NCBI GenBank assembly: GCA_003566715.1
Contig: PXCF01000139.1
Location: forward strand, 82,275-116,325
Length of the DNA: 34,051 bases
Source of the DNA: Cryomorphaceae bacterium
GTDB lineage: Bacteria; Bacteroidota; Bacteroidia; Flavobacteriales; Schleiferiaceae
Direction of reading: 5' to 3'
Shown here in pieces: positions 5,266-34,051 of this stretch. How positions within the stretch are numbered: position 1 is the stretch's first letter; each line of letters starts with the position of its first letter. Position numbers and translations under genes: made by a program. The notes beneath the pieces were generated by a model. It was given only the letters and a program-made list of their open reading frames with translations, was not told the origin of the DNA and made no database searches.

Positions 5266-8136
5266 ATGATAAAACACCTTCTGTTGTTAAGTGCTTTTTT
5301 GTGGACTTTGTTAGACACATCACTGCTGGCAAACTACCACATCAAGCGCGTTTCTGTTTCCGAAGGCGTGCTGGTCCCACTGGTGAGCCAGACCTACATA
5401 AGCGAAGATCAAAATGTATGGTTAGCGACGATGGGGCAAGGGTTGCTTTGGTGGAATGGCCATGCCTTTGTTCCGCCATTTTCTGAAAATACGTTACAAG
5501 ACCCCTTTATATTAGAGTTATTCGAAAAAGGTGGTGATTTCTATATGTTGACGGAACAATACATGGTCAAGTATGATGGTTATACATATACACATATACG
5601 TTTACCGGAATCAGAAAGAATAGTATCGTCTTATTTTTATGATGATAATCTATATGTTTTATCTCAAGGAAATGGACTTTGGTTGTATAGCGACAGCGTT
5701 TGGGATCATTTGACACAAGAAACAACCACCTTAAGATTCAACGACGTGATTTTTACAGAAAATGCCTGGTGGTTTGCTACGTCATCAGGGGTTTGGGAAA
5801 TAGGTGAAGAAATCAATCAAGTGGGTCTTTCAGGTGTACATGTTCGCAAGTGGTATACCACGCCGGAAGGGGTTTTGTATGCAGCAACGACAAAAGGATT
5901 ATATCGCTGGGATGGTGCGTTTTATGCGGTTATTGAATCGGTTGATGTGCGAGATATTGCGTATCACAACGGAGAGATATTTGTAGCAACCAGCAATCTC
6001 GGTATTTTGGCAGAACATCAAACGTCCATAACAACCTCAAGTGGGGCACACAATAATCAAATGCGCTCCATTGCCTTTGATCGTGCGGGAAGACTTTGGT
6101 ATACGACCTCAGATGGTATGGGGGTGGTCACCAGTTTAAAAGAACGCACATTTTTACAAGATGATACCAAGTATTATCGTGGCTTGATTTCTCAAAACAA
6201 AGATATTTGGTTGACGGGGAATATGGGGTGGATTCTAGAGAGAGAATCAGATACCATTATTGGTAGACTTGAGCCGGGGATTGTATTTGCAATGACTGAA
6301 GACAACGATGGCAATGTCTTGATTGCCGGAGAAAATGGTATAGATATCCGCTCTCCAGTTGGCAATCGATTGTCATTTCTTCGTGAGTCTCTTCCGGATC
6401 CATTTGTTACATCCATGGCCGTGATTGATGACGTTTTGTATTTAGGCTGTGCTAGTGGCATCTATAAAATTGAACGTTATCTTGATCAGCCTAGAGTTGA
6501 CATGATATATGCGCAAGGAGTTTCTCATCTTTCAATCAGAGGACAACAGTTGATTGCGCTATCATTTATCAATGGTGTTTTGGTGTTTGATTCGACTGGT
6601 AAAGTGGTGGAGAATTACTCAGAATTTGCCGATTCATCGGCTTTGAGCTTACTGCCCTCAGCCTTGTCGGTGGATGATTCAGGTTTTATATGGATGGGAA
6701 CATCAAATGCGGGAGCGTTCATACAGACCAAAAGTGGATGGGAAAATATGATTATTGAAGGAGAACGAACCATTTACGATTGGTACCCCGTGGGGGGAAG
6801 GAGGATGGTGGCTGTAACTGAGAATCACCTTATGATGGTCGATGCCAACAATGATGATTTTTTTGTTTATCGACACCCTTACGAGGCATTCATCCCCAAT
6901 GGATATTCCGATAGGACGTATCCTTTTGGTTTTAAAAATGGGCTTTTGTATTTGACGTCAACACAAGGACGACACACCATACATACAGATTTATTCTATT
7001 ACCCATTGGAAAGTAATGCCGACTGCATGCCTCAACTATGGCGAATGGATTTATATTTTGATATGCATACCCGCTGGAGAGATAAATCTGAGGATTTGTC
7101 GCCATTTACCGGCGTGCCCCAACAAGTGGTTCTAAGCCACAAGGAAAACTATTTGCGCTTTTTGTTTGGTGCGCCCAAACTACCACTTTTAGATGGGCAT
7201 TTGGCATATAGATACCGAATGAACCCCATGGATCCCAACTGGATAGAAATTGATGGGTTACCCGAAGCTGTATACGCAAATATGTCCCCCGGAAGGTACA
7301 CATTTGAGCTACAAGCCCGATGGCCTCACGGACAGTGGTCGCCAGCCAAGCAAATCAGCATCAATATCGTACCGCCCTGGTATAGGACATGGTGGTTTTA
7401 TGTTACTACCATAGCACTATTGGTATTTGGTGTTTATACTGGTGTTAGACTAAGGATCAAACAGCAAAATGAGCGGATAAGGCTTGAGAATGCCGTGTTG
7501 GCAAATGAACGGGTTGCATTGCGATTGCAGATGAACCCGCATTTCCTATTCAATGCTTTAGAATCCATTGGAAGTTTTGTATTGAAAAATGACCCCAAGT
7601 CAACGATGAAGTACCTCAATAGTTTTACCAAGTTGATGCGATTGACGCTTGAAGCTGGTACCGATAAGGATCATCCAGTTGAGAATGAAATAACATTGTT
7701 GACGTCGTACGTAACGCTTGAACAGCTGCGGTTTAGTCATAAATTTGACGTTGCATTTGAGATTGATGAAAATATAGATTACGACATTGCCATACCACCC
7801 ATGTTGGTTCAACCACACGTAGAAAATGCCATTATCCATGGGTTGCGTGATCTTGAGGAGAGAAGGGGTAAGTTGGTGGTTCGTTTTATTCTTACCGACA
7901 CAAATTTGGTGGTGGAGATTGAGGATAACGGTGTAGGACGGGAAGCCAATAGAAGCCAAAAAAGAAAACATCATCGTTCGATGGCTCTTGAAATCAATCG
8001 CAAACGCATTGAATTGCTATCAAAATCATTTCATCGTGAATTTTCGTTGAAAATTCACGACCTTTACCACGAAGGCAAAGCCGCAGGTACCAAAGTTGTA
8101 GTAACCTTACCCATCATTTATTTAGACGATTTATGA
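5266..8136 (+). CDS. Propeller-sensor histidine kinase (Y_Y_Y plus LytS-type His_kinase)
   Basis: This is a membrane sensor kinase of 956 residues. A signal peptide (about residues 1-22) leads into a long periplasmic region with short repeats such as NVWLATMGQGLLWW, LWYTTSDGMG and IWMGTSNAG, typical of two-component regulator propeller blades. A Y_Y_Y-type beta-sandwich ends in SPGRYTFELQARW and PPWYRTWW, just before one membrane helix (about 709-731) and a short coiled coil. The cytoplasmic part is of the LytS/YehU type: LRLQMNPHFLFNALESIG has the likely phospho-accepting histidine 759, and the ATPase has asparagine 854 in the N-box and DNGVG at 887-891. The stop overlaps the response regulator start by 4 bp, so they are a cognate pair. 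The signal sensed is unknown; large polymers are common for propeller sensors. Confidence 0.9.
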   Translation: MIKHLLLLSAFLWTLLDTSLLANYHIKRVSVSEGVLVPLVSQTYISEDQNVWLATMGQGLLWWNGHAFVPPFSENTLQDPFILELFEKGGDFYMLTEQYMVKYDGYTYTHIRLPESERIVSSYFYDDNLYVLSQGNGLWLYSDSVWDHLTQETTTLRFNDVIFTENAWWFATSSGVWEIGEEINQVGLSGVHVRKWYTTPEGVLYAATTKGLYRWDGAFYAVIESVDVRDIAYHNGEIFVATSNLGILAEHQTSITTSSGAHNNQMRSIAFDRAGRLWYTTSDGMGVVTSLKERTFLQDDTKYYRGLISQNKDIWLTGNMGWILERESDTIIGRLEPGIVFAMTEDNDGNVLIAGENGIDIRSPVGNRLSFLRESLPDPFVTSMAVIDDVLYLGCASGIYKIERYLDQPRVDMIYAQGVSHLSIRGQQLIALSFINGVLVFDSTGKVVENYSEFADSSALSLLPSALSVDDSGFIWMGTSNAGAFIQTKSGWENMIIEGERTIYDWYPVGGRRMVAVTENHLMMVDANNDDFFVYRHPYEAFIPNGYSDRTYPFGFKNGLLYLTSTQGRHTIHTDLFYYPLESNADCMPQLWRMDLYFDMHTRWRDKSEDLSPFTGVPQQVVLSHKENYLRFLFGAPKLPLLDGHLAYRYRMNPMDPNWIEIDGLPEAVYANMSPGRYTFELQARWPHGQWSPAKQISINIVPPWYRTWWFYVTTIALLVFGVYTGVRLRIKQQNERIRLENAVLANERVALRLQMNPHFLFNALESIGSFVLKNDPKSTMKYLNSFTKLMRLTLEAGTDKDHPVENEITLLTSYVTLEQLRFSHKFDVAFEIDENIDYDIAIPPMLVQPHVENAIIHGLRDLEERRGKLVVRFILTDTNLVVEIEDNGVGREANRSQKRKHHRSMALEINRKRIELLSKSFHREFSLKIHDLYHEGKAAGTKVVVTLPIIYLDDL

Positions 8137-9931: not shown

Positions 9932-9968
9932 GCTATAGAGGATTAATAAGCCTATTATTTCATATTAC

Positions 9969-10002
9969 AAAAAAAGCCATCTGATTAGAGATGGCTTTTT
10001 TT
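9969..10002. terminator. Strong bidirectional terminator between era and gldJ
   Basis: A perfect 14-base inverted repeat with arms at 9969-9982 and 9989-10002, the GC-rich part being AGCCATCT/AGATGGCT, and a six-base loop GATTAG. The outer arms are seven A and seven T, so it has a T-tract on both strands and can end era (plus) and gldJ (minus). Confidence 0.9.
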
Positions 10003-10020
10003 GTGGTATTGCTTGACTTT

Positions 10021-21315: not shown

Positions 21316-21341
21316 AAAAGACGGGGCATGCCCCGTCTTTT
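21316..21341. terminator. Strong bidirectional terminator after pdhC
   Basis: AAAAGACGGGGC (21316-21327) pairs with GCCCCGTCTTTT (21330-21341), with a practical loop of CATG, and runs into further T. It sits between the convergent pdhC and permease genes and can act on both strands. Confidence 0.9.
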
Positions 21342-29061: not shown

Positions 29062-32000
29062 ATGAGTAGAGTTCATAGAATAATAATTGTGTTGATGCTG
29101 GGGATTCTTCAGCCAATAAGTGCACAGTTTTTCTATGGCACCTACATGGATTTCGGAAAAAATCGTGTCCAATTTACGGATTTTGACTGGAATGTATACC
29201 GACTGGATCAGCTGGACGTGTACTATTATGCCAACGATCGAGTGCTGCCAAGAAAGGTGGCGCTGATGACGCAGAAAAACATTTCTTCTTTACAGCGTCA
29301 GCTAGAAACCAGTTTTGATGGACGTGTTCAGGTTATTCTTTTTACTACACTTACAGACCTAAAACAAAGCAATCTCATCCCAATAGATGACATTCCGTTT
29401 AATACCGGTGGGGTCACACAAATCGCCGGCAGCAAGATATATTTATACTTTGACGGAAATTATCAAGAACTCGAGCAGCGCTTGCGAAAAGCGCTTGCGG
29501 AATTGATGATTACTTACATTATGTATGGAGATCTATCGGAATCCATCAGGAATAGCACGCTACTCAATTTGCCCGATTGGTATTTAGATGGACTGGTGTC
29601 TTATCTCTCAACTCCTTGGACGGTAGAAATCGACCGTGAAATGCGGGAAGGTATTTATACCCGTCGTTTTAAAAGGTTTAACGCACTCACCGGCGATGAA
29701 GCAGAGATTGCCGGTCATGCACTTTGGCATTTCGTTGCCGAGACTTATGGGAAGAGTGTGATAAGGAATATCCTTTACATGACCTTGGTTAACCGCAACG
29801 TAGAAACAGGTTTTCAGTACATTTTGGGCATAGAAATGGGCCAGCTAATCAAAAATCTTCAAGCCTACTACCGAGGGCAATATCAGCAAATGATTGACAA
29901 TGATAAGGTAGAAGGAGAGGAATTAAAACGCAGTAGGAAATCGCGTGAGTTTGCGCATATTGCCAGCACGGCTAATGGAAAACACATTGCATATGCAGAA
30001 CACAACCTCAACGAATTTCGGGTGTATATCTACGATGTGGAAAAAAAGAGGCGGAAGCGCATCTACAAAGGTGGATATAAAATAGCCACCTATCCTGACC
30101 GGAGTTTCCCCATTATGGATTGGCATCCCAACAATCGCTTATTGGCCTTTATGACGGAAGAAAAAGGGTTTATATGGTTGTATTATTACGATACGGAAAA
30201 AAAGAAACTCGACAAACGCCCTTTTTATGGTGTCGATAAAGTCAATCAATTTCAATATTCACCGGATGGTCGTCAATTTGTTTTATCAGCAGTCAAAAAT
30301 GGACAGTCTAATATCTTTTTGTATAACATCCTTAGTACTTCCTATAAGCCTCTAACTTCAGATGATTACATAGATCTATGGCCGTCTTTTATCAATGGGG
30401 GAAGAGATGTGGTTTTTACCAGTGATCGGCCCGATGAGCAACTGACACCTGGAAAACGCGTGGATTCATTCAGCCGCGCACAAAATGTATTCATTTACAA
30501 GTTGTCGGAGGGAGCAGAGCAAACGCTCAGACGTGTCACCAATACATCAAATGTCAGCGAGGTTTCACCCACAGAATGGAAGCCAGGGTATCTTCATTAC
30601 ATCCGCAGATATAATGGTGTACGCAATGATTTTCTTGTGGTCATGGACTCAAATATTGCCTTTGTAGATACCATTACGCACTATAATTATACGTTTGAAA
30701 GTTACCCTATTTCAGATTTAGATAGAAATATTGAGCACGCAGCCTTAGGTGGAGATAACATGTTTTATGTGGTGAAGAGAAAAAAACGATTTCGTATTTT
30801 TAAAGCAAATCGAACGCACCCTTCACGTTTCTATACAGAGTCTAGTGTTCCGGAATTAGAAGCGAGAGATGTTCAGGAAGAGGAGGATATGGATGATGTT
30901 GGGTTGAGGTACATCAGTGTTCCAGACATTTCATACGAAATAGATATCACCAATTACCAATTCGATGAAGATGTACTTCGCGATTTGGGACTCCATCAGG
31001 AGCAGATTAAAGAACGAGAAAAAAAGCTCAAAGAACAAAGACCGGTACTCAGTTCGCGTACCATCGAGGAGCCAGTCACCCAAGAAGCGTTTGAGATGCC
31101 ACCGAGAAGAAACTATTTTTTGTCTTTTTATCAAGACGAATTGACGTTTCAGTTTGATAACACCTTTTTAAATCCACAATATCAGCCATTTACCGGCAGG
31201 GCTGATGTGGGTATGCTCAATCCGGGTTTTAATGGATTACTTCGGGTAGGCGTCACGGATTTGCTCAATGATTACAAAGTTACTTTGGCGGCTAGAACCA
31301 ATTTCACACCATTACCCGGAACCAGTATCAGTCCCAATCACGAGATATTTGTTGGTTTTCACAATTACAAACGCCGACTAAACCAAGAGACTTTTCTCTA
31401 TAGAAGAAGTCACTTAAACGTAATGAGTTTTGCGGAAATTGAGCGCTTCTTTAGTCACGAAGTCATGCATCAATTGACTTATCCTTTGTCACCGGTGAAA
31501 GCGCTGCGGATTTCGGGTGCAGTGCGAATGGATCACCAAGTATCACTTTCACGAGAACAGATAAGCTTGCAAGCTCCTACGGAATTTCAGTATTTTGGCG
31601 TCATGAGAGCGGCATATATTTACGATAATGTTCGCACATTGGGTATTAATTTGTGGGAGGGAACCCGTTATAAATTGTTTACCGAATACTATCGTCGTTT
31701 GGATGAATCGCCCAGTGGATTACATACGTTGGGTATAGATGTTCGTAAATACAATACGGTGCACGGGCCTATCATCTGGGCAAACCGCTTTGCGGCAGGT
31801 ACTTCGTTTGGATACGAAAAGTTGGTGCATTTTCTAGGCGGGGTTGACAACCAGTTTGCACCCCAAATCAACGAAGCGACCCCCATTGCTTTTGAGGAGA
31901 ATTATGTTTTTCAAACACTGGCAACCAATATGCGAGGTTTTTTTCAAAATGCTCGCAATGGCAACAATTTTTCAGTTATTAATTCGGAAGTTAGAATTCC

Positions 32001-32322
32001 GTTGTTCCGCTATTTGTTAAAACGCCCTATTTTAAACGAATTCGTTAATAATTTCCAAGTTGTTCCATTTTTTGATGTAGGTACGGCGTGGAATGGATTT
32101 AACCCTTATGGAGAGCAAAACGCCATTAATTCACAAGTGATTGATCGAGGTAATATACGCGTGATTATCGATAGCAATAAAGAGCCAATTATTGCTGGGA
32201 CCGGCGTTGGACTTCGCACCAAGCTATTTGGTTACTTCGTTCGCGTGGATTGGGCCAAGGGCATCGAAGATGGCATATTCTTGCCGCGCGTTTTCCATTT
32301 TTCTATTGGAACCGATTTTTAA
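29062..32322 (+). CDS. Outer-membrane protein with inactive peptidase-like, TolB-like propeller and barrel domains
   Basis: I recognise parts rather than a named protein. The 1086-residue product has a signal peptide (cleavage near residue 22, ISAQ). Residues about 45-280 resemble a peptidase MA-like (gluzincin) domain: LRKALAELMITY at 141-152 sits where HExxH is expected but keeps only the glutamate, and LPDWYLDGLVSYLS at 170-183 matches the following WxxEGL motif with aspartate. Residues about 295-560 form TolB/WD40-like repeats (IASTANGKHIAYA, MDWHPNNRLLAFM, FQYSPDGRQFVLSA, WPSFINGGRDVVFTSDRP). A charged linker (about 600-680) leads to a C-terminal region of alternating strands ending in HFSIGTDF, as in BamA-like outer-membrane barrels. 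It would display the propeller in the periplasm. Function unknown; it stands alone between promoters. Confidence 0.7.
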   Translation: MSRVHRIIIVLMLGILQPISAQFFYGTYMDFGKNRVQFTDFDWNVYRLDQLDVYYYANDRVLPRKVALMTQKNISSLQRQLETSFDGRVQVILFTTLTDLKQSNLIPIDDIPFNTGGVTQIAGSKIYLYFDGNYQELEQRLRKALAELMITYIMYGDLSESIRNSTLLNLPDWYLDGLVSYLSTPWTVEIDREMREGIYTRRFKRFNALTGDEAEIAGHALWHFVAETYGKSVIRNILYMTLVNRNVETGFQYILGIEMGQLIKNLQAYYRGQYQQMIDNDKVEGEELKRSRKSREFAHIASTANGKHIAYAEHNLNEFRVYIYDVEKKRRKRIYKGGYKIATYPDRSFPIMDWHPNNRLLAFMTEEKGFIWLYYYDTEKKKLDKRPFYGVDKVNQFQYSPDGRQFVLSAVKNGQSNIFLYNILSTSYKPLTSDDYIDLWPSFINGGRDVVFTSDRPDEQLTPGKRVDSFSRAQNVFIYKLSEGAEQTLRRVTNTSNVSEVSPTEWKPGYLHYIRRYNGVRNDFLVVMDSNIAFVDTITHYNYTFESYPISDLDRNIEHAALGGDNMFYVVKRKKRFRIFKANRTHPSRFYTESSVPELEARDVQEEEDMDDVGLRYISVPDISYEIDITNYQFDEDVLRDLGLHQEQIKEREKKLKEQRPVLSSRTIEEPVTQEAFEMPPRRNYFLSFYQDELTFQFDNTFLNPQYQPFTGRADVGMLNPGFNGLLRVGVTDLLNDYKVTLAARTNFTPLPGTSISPNHEIFVGFHNYKRRLNQETFLYRRSHLNVMSFAEIERFFSHEVMHQLTYPLSPVKALRISGAVRMDHQVSLSREQISLQAPTEFQYFGVMRAAYIYDNVRTLGINLWEGTRYKLFTEYYRRLDESPSGLHTLGIDVRKYNTVHGPIIWANRFAAGTSFGYEKLVHFLGGVDNQFAPQINEATPIAFEENYVFQTLATNMRGFFQNARNGNNFSVINSEVRIPLFRYLLKRPILNEFVNNFQVVPFFDVGTAWNGFNPYGEQNAINSQVIDRGNIRVIIDSNKEPIIAGTGVGLRTKLFGYFVRVDWAKGIEDGIFLPRVFHFSIGTDF

Positions 32323-32642
32323 TTACTCCCTTTTTTAAATAGTGAATGATGTCTCTAACGATGACATTGTTTGATTATACGACTAAACCTATTATCGCTA
32401 AAGAAAGGTTAAAAAAATGCTGTTCTTGCGATTGTTCGTTTTTGTATAAAAGTAAGATAATTCATATAAAAAATATTAAGTCGCTAATCCTTAATGAGTT
32501 GATTTAAAGTCATTTGATTTTGTCGAAAATATTCTATATAAAAACATATACGTGTTTGTAATTAACTGAAAACAAAGAGTTGAGATATTCTGGGTGCGTG
32601 TTGGTCTGTCGTAAAAGTACCTGTTGGTTCATTGCTTTTTGT

Positions 32643-32650
32643 TAACTTTG
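32643..32650 (+). promoter_or_regulatory. Promoter -7 element of the last gene
   Basis: TAACTTTG matches TAnnTTTG exactly and is identical to the porU element at 13155. A TTG at 32624-32626 lies 16 bases upstream, slightly short. The leader to the ATG at 32728 would be about 70 bases. Confidence 0.5.
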
Positions 32651-32668
32651 CCTATTATAAAATTAAAG

Positions 32669-32705
32669 AAACGTTACTTTAATTAGCGATGGAGTAACGT
32701 TTTTT
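32669..32705 (+). terminator. Terminator-like hairpin inside the leader of the last gene
   Basis: AAACGTTACT (32669-32678) pairs perfectly with AGTAACGTTT (32693-32702) across a 14-base loop, and the T run continues to 32705. It falls between the promoter element and the start codon, so it could attenuate transcription or protect the message. Confidence 0.5.
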
Positions 32706-32727
32706 AAATCATCAAAAAAATGTGATT

Positions 32728-34051
32728 ATGTTTAGAAAGCTATTATTTGCCTGTCAACAGAAGGTGAAGTTGATGACCACAAACGCTTTTCTTTTATTGA
32801 GCTTTGTGGGGTTTGCGCAAACCAATATTGCGCCTCAGGCTACGGTAACCGGCAGCGATTGTCGAACCGGACAATGTTCAGACATCAACAACCTCAACTT
32901 TGGTACATGTGGAACACAGCAAATGTGGATCAGCACCAGTAATCCTCCAAGTTCAACACCAGGGGTAGACTGGATTCAGTGGGATTTTCCTGGGCCGGTA
33001 TCGTTTGATGAATTTATTATTCACCATGCGAATGCTACATCACGATCGCTTACAGGTGCGTTAATCCAGTATTGGGATGGAGCAGCCTGGGTTAACCATC
33101 ACACATTTAGTAATTTACCGCAACAGTGTGACAACTCCGTAACTTTTCCAAGATTAACGGCGCAAACATTTCGTATCACGGCTTTTCAAATGACAGGAAG
33201 CGGACAAACGTCAAATCCAAATTTTCGTGAGATAGAAATTATACAAGCTTCTACTGCGCCAAATGATGCAGGGGTTTCTCAGCTAATCTCACCCAATGCG
33301 TTTTGTCCCGGAAATGAAGACGTCATTGTGCGCGTTACAAATTTTGGAACTAATCAGATTGATTCTGTTCAACTAACATGGACATTTAATGGAACTCCTC
33401 AGGGAAGTCAATGGATCACCACACCACTTGATACATTTGGAGGTTTGGGTTCTCCGCACACCGACGTCAACTTAGGTTCTTTCGCCTTTGCCGCTAATAC
33501 AACTTATGATATTGTAGCTTGGACATCTCTACCCAATGGCGTTGCCGATACAGTAACCAGTAACGATACACTAAGCGCAACGGTTTCCCCAGCAATTAGT
33601 GGTACGTACACCATAAATGATGCGCAGCCTACTGCGGGAAGTAATTTCAATTCCTTCGAAGACTTTGCAGATTTTCTAGATTTAAATGGCGTTTGCGGTC
33701 CTGTGATTGCTAATGTTGACCCTTCGTCCGGGCCATACGATGAACAAGTTGAATTTGGAGATATCGTTGGTGTTGACAGCATAAATACCATTACCATCAA
33801 TGGTAATGGAAGGGTGCTGCGACACAACGCTGCCGGTAGTGCAGATAGAACAACACTTACGTTTAGTGGAGCAAAATACATCACGGTGGATAGCTTAACC
33901 ATTGAAGCAAATGGCTCCAGCCACGGTTGGGTTGCCCACATCACCGGCGGTTCCGAGCACCTTACCATTCGCAATTGCTCCATCATGGCGAGTACAACCA
34001 TTACGGGTACCTTTTCTGCCGGTATTGTGACCAGTGGGTCACCAACAAGTG
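32728..34051 (+). CDS. Secreted multidomain protein: discoidin-like, CARDB-like and beta-helix regions, 3' end missing
   Basis: The frame is open from ATG 32728 to the window edge (441 codons) and is truncated there. The N-terminus has a signal peptide ending at VGFAQ near residue 31; ATG 32773 is an alternative start giving a more compact signal. Residues about 32-171 look like a discoidin (F5/8 type C) domain: NIAPQATVTGSDCR, then VDWIQWDFPGPVSFDEFIIHH, and FRITAFQMTGSG. Residues about 177-289 resemble a CARDB-like adhesion fold (NDAGVSQLISPNAFCPGNEDV, VRVTNFGTN). From 291 (SGTYTINDAQPTAGSNFNSFEDF) the sequence resembles the right-handed beta-helix start common in Bacteroidota surface proteins (ITINGNGRVLRH, LTIRNCSI). 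It is probably a T9SS-exported adhesin or glycan-binding protein; the sorting domain would be beyond the window. Confidence 0.8.
   Translation, partial: MFRKLLFACQQKVKLMTTNAFLLLSFVGFAQTNIAPQATVTGSDCRTGQCSDINNLNFGTCGTQQMWISTSNPPSSTPGVDWIQWDFPGPVSFDEFIIHHANATSRSLTGALIQYWDGAAWVNHHTFSNLPQQCDNSVTFPRLTAQTFRITAFQMTGSGQTSNPNFREIEIIQASTAPNDAGVSQLISPNAFCPGNEDVIVRVTNFGTNQIDSVQLTWTFNGTPQGSQWITTPLDTFGGLGSPHTDVNLGSFAFAANTTYDIVAWTSLPNGVADTVTSNDTLSATVSPAISGTYTINDAQPTAGSNFNSFEDFADFLDLNGVCGPVIANVDPSSGPYDEQVEFGDIVGVDSINTITINGNGRVLRHNAAGSADRTTLTFSGAKYITVDSLTIEANGSSHGWVAHITGGSEHLTIRNCSIMASTTITGTFSAGIVTSGSPTS

Follow-up and report, generated by a model that had tools for sequence, protein, structure and literature searches.

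A predicted stem-loop in the 5'-UTR of a T9SS-protein gene: possibly a mild modulator of the mRNA, probably not an attenuator

Introduction

Stem-loops that lie in the 5'-UTR clear of the start codon stabilise the mRNAs of E. coli ompA, B. subtilis aprE, H. pylori vacA and A. baumannii recA, of which ompA, aprE and vacA encode exported proteins. Such 5' stabilisers have few unpaired nucleotides at their 5' end. In the accessible parts of the literature 5'-UTR stem-loops are described to prolong mRNA life in other bacteria (PMC7509114), and stabilisers of this kind are treated in PMC7509114 and PMC3997798. For F. psychrophilum, the available part of PMC9723704 reports 64 structured 5' regions that were seen as transcripts, some of them conserved in other genera. 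Attenuators that use an intrinsic terminator, whether they work by a leader peptide, a T-box, a riboswitch or a protein antiterminator, likewise have a hairpin followed by a T run 3' of the promoter and 5' of the gene.

The leader described here shares features with all three groups. A stable 5'-UTR stem-loop clear of the start codon was found in the window (16 pairs), which is the whole stretch of 34,051 nucleotides that was analysed, and in the ortholog of the nearest relative compared (G001). About 11 unpaired nucleotides would precede the window stem if transcription starts at 32655, more than in the 5'-terminal stabiliser of the ompA type. A further difference to the known stabilisers is that the window hairpin is one predicted from sequence, in a phylum reported to be without Shine-Dalgarno sites (PMC6847099, in the part available). 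Like the F. psychrophilum leaders the window leader is structured, has no Rfam family and belongs to a host using the TAnnTTTG box, but its hairpin is present in two species and predicted from DNA. It has the hairpin and T run of an attenuator, but nothing in it was recognised as a leader peptide, an aptamer or an alternative structure, and the terminator signature is weak and even weaker in G001. A literature search, judged by titles and the beginnings of abstracts, found nothing on this leader.

Results

The gene and its product

The window is the last part of contig C82 in a draft genome (G000) of 2.46 Mb. As contig and window stop at the same point, the gene that begins at 32728 is incomplete, with its first 441 codons present (Table 1). 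Its G001 ortholog, on a contig of 18955 bases, has 1950 amino acids and contains Por_Secre_tail, Ig-like, beta helix and F5/8-type-C-like domains, every one over its cut-off; the part of the protein in the window gives F5/8-type-C-like matches slightly under the Pfam cut-offs. Since the C-terminus of the G001 ortholog is a T9SS sorting domain, we regard the gene product as type IX secreted. The original prediction had called it secreted and adhesin-like. A large secreted protein agrees with the sorting domain of the ortholog, and adhesion would be a presumed function. The G000 genome contains 88 matches to T9SS sorting domains, 82 of them over the cut-off, and several of the frames with such matches are interrupted at contig edges, as if repetitive surface genes had broken the assembly there.

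Table 1 Features of the leader and the secreted-protein gene, in positions of the window
Feature	Position	Strand	Basis and remarks
-7-type promoter box TAACTTTG, consensus TAHHTTTG	32643..32650	+	Sequence; G001, G004 and G002 orthologs; PMC6847099 (accessible part)
Predicted transcription start	32655..32657	+	Predicted by counting the G in the box as position -5; numbering from PMC6847099 (accessible part)
Hairpin 5' arm	32666..32681	+	Fold; 11/16 nt (69%) identical in G001
Hairpin loop	32682..32689	+	Fold; 3/8 nt (38%) identical in G001
Hairpin 3' arm including T run	32690..32705	+	Fold; 8/16 nt (50%) identical in G001
A-rich stretch	32706..32727	+	Weak second hairpin predicted, -1.7 kcal/mol here and -1.4 in G001
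Secreted-protein gene	32728..34051	+	Start codon ATG 32728-32730; incomplete, contig end

Promoter and predicted transcription start

An exact TAnnTTTG promoter had been predicted upstream of the stem and the start codon, and the box is indeed present there. The 25 nucleotides from 32637 to 32661 that include it are identical to the G001 ortholog region (25/25), while identity falls to 128/271 (47%) in the intergenic DNA 5' of this region and to 7/26 (27%) in the -33 zone, where inspection by eye showed no TTTG with suitable spacing. The same kind of box precedes the orthologs of two further genomes of the genus (TAATTTTG in G004, TAACTTTG in G002). Exact TTGTTAACTTTG occurs a single time in the G000 genome, and the 20-nt promoter pattern with up to three mismatches was found in G000 and G001 only, among five genomes of the genus. 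Consensus, spacing and numbering of the -7 element were taken from the accessible part of PMC6847099; by this numbering transcription would start near 32655, and the leader would measure about 73 nt. For comparison, the median length of a 5'-UTR is given as 24 nt in F. psychrophilum (PMC9723704) and as 32 nt in B. thetaiotaomicron (PMC7366714), in the parts of these papers available to us.

Structure of the hairpin

As originally described, a perfect ten-pair stem and a T run lie between promoter box and start codon: ten unbroken Watson-Crick pairs (AAACGTTACT/AGTAACGTTT, 32669-32678/32693-32702) enclose a loop of 14 nt. With G-U pairs allowed, the minimum-energy fold comprises 16 unbroken pairs and a loop of 8 nt, and the centroid fold gives the leader stem as well. 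Six T follow immediately 3' of the CGTTACT/AGTAACG core, and in the minimum-energy fold this T run pairs with AAGAAA. From the 3' end of the hairpin to the ATG there are 22 nt, and about 11 nt would separate the predicted start from the stem.

The fold of 32657-32760 was equalled by 3 of 200 dinucleotide shuffles. In chance sets derived from the 405 nt of intergenic DNA (1000 mono-shuffles and 1000 order-1 Markov sequences), at least 16 pairs never arose within the 73-nt leader (0/1000 in both sets) and arose anywhere in the 405 nt in 2 mono-shuffles and 3 Markov sequences. At least ten Watson-Crick pairs appeared in the leader in 4/1000 mono-shuffles and 1/1000 Markov sequences, and anywhere in the 405 nt in 22/1000 and 26/1000, respectively. 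The whole 34-kb window has four hairpins, the leader's included, in which at least ten Watson-Crick pairs enclose a loop of 3-20 nt; of the three others, two have the scores of terminators at gene ends. Judged by the fold predictions, the RNA hairpin between promoter and secreted-protein gene appears to be real.

An Rfam search of the window gave no match at gathering score. A sub-threshold match to alpha_tmRNA at 32700-32771 (12.6 bits vs 50, E 0.093) was taken as chance. Elsewhere in the window, a 12-pair stem with a 3-nt loop lies at 8034-8060, within the 3'-terminal part of the ORF 5266-8136.

The stretch before the start codon

Within the A-rich stretch ATGTGATTATG is identical in G001, and position -3 of the start codon is an A. 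For F. johnsoniae the accessible part of PMC6847099 reports that initiation prefers weakly structured sites and an A at -3, and that an additional AUG near the start is under-represented. An out-of-frame start-stop, AUGUGA, is located at 32720-32725, 8 nt before the true AUG, and is identical in G001. Among 65 other T9SS upstream regions of the genome, ten have an ATG within -21 to -1 and one has a start-stop.

Conservation in the genus

The upstream gene and the secreted protein of G001 are 92% and 93% identical to those of the window. Though the hairpin sequence has diverged, the G001 leader, folded by itself, forms a stem of 15 pairs interrupted by a single bulge where the window has its stem, and the 48-nt core has an energy of -10.6 kcal/mol. 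When the same substitutions were placed at random, this energy was equalled in 49 and the number of pairs in 235 of 5000 simulations. In a structural register set by eye for these two sequences, 14 of the 16 window pairs are kept in G001 and 2 are lost; of those kept, 7 are unaltered, 5 carry a substitution in one arm and 2 in both arms. The null probability of keeping 14 pairs is 3.6%, or 6.8% with a freely placed bulge. The comparison gives moderate evidence that the stem rather than its sequence has been kept between the window and G001.

G004 is syntenic, with an upstream gene of 75% identity followed by the ortholog. The G002 ortholog (80%) and the homolog of the upstream gene sit on different contigs, and no secreted-protein match was found within 1500 bases of that homolog. 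Both orthologs possess the promoter box, and their 29-nt leaders are without any predicted pair. In G003 the 1500 bases 3' of the upstream gene contain no secreted-protein match; its N-terminal matches (49-59%) were taken as paralogs and left out of the ortholog count. The original prediction had staked itself on conservation of the stem in orthologous leaders, which we found in G001 but not in G004 and G002, that is in one of three same-genus orthologs with a readable leader, a comparison that relies on the G001, G004 and G002-C144 rows as several paralog rows had doubtful boxes. A covariance model of the window and G001, built on 7 pairs only, detected nothing convincing beyond its inputs in five genomes of the genus (next E 0.69). 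Among the matches listed in a DNA search of 60 genomes, our own included, were those to the own genome and to G001 and two to G002, the latter within the coding portion of the query; all others listed had E values of 0.0024 or above. The stem-loop seems to be lineage-specific, carried in the two sequences so far by this species and the nearest relative compared.

In the G004 ortholog residues 18-441 are 93% identical to the window protein, and leader and signal peptide are unlike those of the window. With only 75% for the syntenic upstream gene vs 93% for the secreted ortholog, recombination or a strong constraint on the secreted domain are possible.

Terminator scores

By a score of the d'Aubenton-Carafa type, with a cut-off of 0, the leader hairpin reaches -7.8 and the G001 leader -46.8, and the T run comprises six T in the window and four in G001. 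The same score was computed for fourteen 3' ends of genes in the window. Four of these, at +26.9, +19.4, +44.3 and +13.0, are served by two clear terminators; the remaining ten (seven from -35.3 to -66.2, three without a candidate) are all worse than the leader, and some of them lie probably inside operons. At 10 of the 14 ends even the best hairpin falls short of the one in the leader, and weak termination may occur. The two clear terminators, at 9967-10004 and 21316-21341, lie between convergent genes and score on both strands.

A generic terminator scan of 32300-32800 returned 0 sites, with a loop limit of 8 nt that would miss the long-loop form. Since only about 11 nt would lie between the predicted start and the stem, no antiterminator, competing structure or leader peptide would fit there. 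Of the hallmarks of an attenuator, neither an intrinsic-terminator score over the cut-off, nor a switching element 5' of the terminator, nor conservation across the orthologous leaders was found.

Other T9SS leaders of the genome

From the 82 of 88 T9SS matches over the cut-off, 8 were left out as their open frame begins at a contig edge; of the remaining 74 upstream regions 9 were dropped (too short or without ATG), which left 65. With the first ATG of each frame taken as start codon, some therefore wrongly, none of these 65 has an unbroken stem of more than 10 pairs in the 70 nt before the ATG, and the 16-pair stem of the window is the longest of the 66. By fold energy of the same 70 nt, the window (-17.7 kcal/mol) comes second to L142 (-18.5) and is nearly level with L192 (-17.6). 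The stem of L142, GC-rich and followed by T, is situated 5' of the promoter box of its gene and was read as terminator of the preceding gene.

A TAHHTTTG box is present within 130 nt upstream in 20 of the 65, with leaders of 10-90 nt (16/20 at 38 nt or less), and three of the 20 fold at -8 kcal/mol or below. The 90-nt leader of L180 folds more strongly than the window leader (-19.5 vs -17.7 kcal/mol) with an unbroken stem of 8 pairs; L176 has 86 nt, -10.1 kcal/mol and a stem of 10 pairs, L136 66 nt, -8.0 kcal/mol and 8 pairs. The folds of L180, L176, L136, L142 and L192 tell against a special status of the window leader. A structure shared with the leaders of other T9SS genes of this genome, a check of the kind proposed with the original prediction, was looked for and not found.

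Discussion

We tentatively favour, at somewhat less than an even chance, the explanation that the mRNA of this T9SS protein carries a young stem-loop in its 5'-UTR, with a mild effect at the mRNA level. We infer that transcription would start about 11 nt 5' of the stem and that the polymerase would normally read through. The stem would tie the first half of the 73-nt leader into a duplex and leave 22 A-rich, weakly structured nucleotides free for the ribosome. The likeliest effect would be a mild one, in which the mRNA is protected from decay or its early elongation or translation is tuned, and any premature termination would be partial. The stem-loop is perhaps a weak modulator of the mRNA and possibly neutral. 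Against a function speaks that two same-genus orthologs, the syntenic G004 among them, apparently do without the hairpin.

Neutrality ranks second and is a serious possibility: an AT-rich leader would have gained a palindrome in the ancestor of the two species, without measurable effect. The lack of the hairpin in G004 and G002 fits this explanation, as do arm identities (69% and 50%) near the intergenic background of 47%, a pairing kept just modestly above chance, and the 22-26 of 1000 random intergenic sequences that contain a 10-pair Watson-Crick stem somewhere. The energy test (49/5000), the two double-sided changes that retain pairs and a stem that is the longest of 66 T9SS upstream regions speak against it.

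That the hairpin with its T run halts RNA polymerase at about 32702-32706 unless melted by a factor or condition, as proposed in the original prediction, is unlikely in our view. Six T right after the core of a stem 3' of a conserved promoter are what such an element would have, and -7.8 is the fifth best score, after four real-looking terminator ends and ahead of ten ends at -35.3 or below or without a candidate. However, the score is under the cut-off, the generic scan found no site (within its loop limit), the T run is itself paired into the stem, and neither an Rfam match at gathering score nor such a stem in the 65 other T9SS upstream regions was found. Attenuation is ranked below the stem-loop with a mild effect because of the terminator score, which drops further in G001, the shorter T run there, the little space 5' of the stem and its absence in two orthologs. 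A protein-dependent mode of attenuation may exist. Of the original prediction, promoter, stem and large secreted protein stand, and attenuation is weakly supported.

We consider it very unlikely that hairpin and AUGUGA form a lineage-specific module in which partial termination, together with competition between the two start codons, tunes the expression of a giant T9SS surface protein. A late terminator of the upstream gene (29062-32322), for which the promoter match would be irrelevant, is hardly credible and was rejected because of position and conservation. In its favour, the 170 nt that follow 32322 gave no good terminator (best score -39.8). Against it, the hairpin is some 345 nt away from the stop and 3' of the 25-nt conserved promoter region, and its T run is shortened in G001, whose upstream gene is the same. 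Phase variation by inversion was dismissed by the hairpin geometry, since the arms enclose a loop of 8-14 nt and not a promoter-bearing segment, and no other inverted repeats of at least 12 nt were found in 32300-33100.

The favoured stem-loop looks like a real yet ordinary structured leader and not like an on/off switch of transcription. If it is not functional, it calls for caution, as a stem and a T run behind a promoter do not alone make an attenuator. If it is functional, it would represent a 5'-UTR structure quickly gained upstream of a single T9SS surface-protein gene rather than a control of the whole set.
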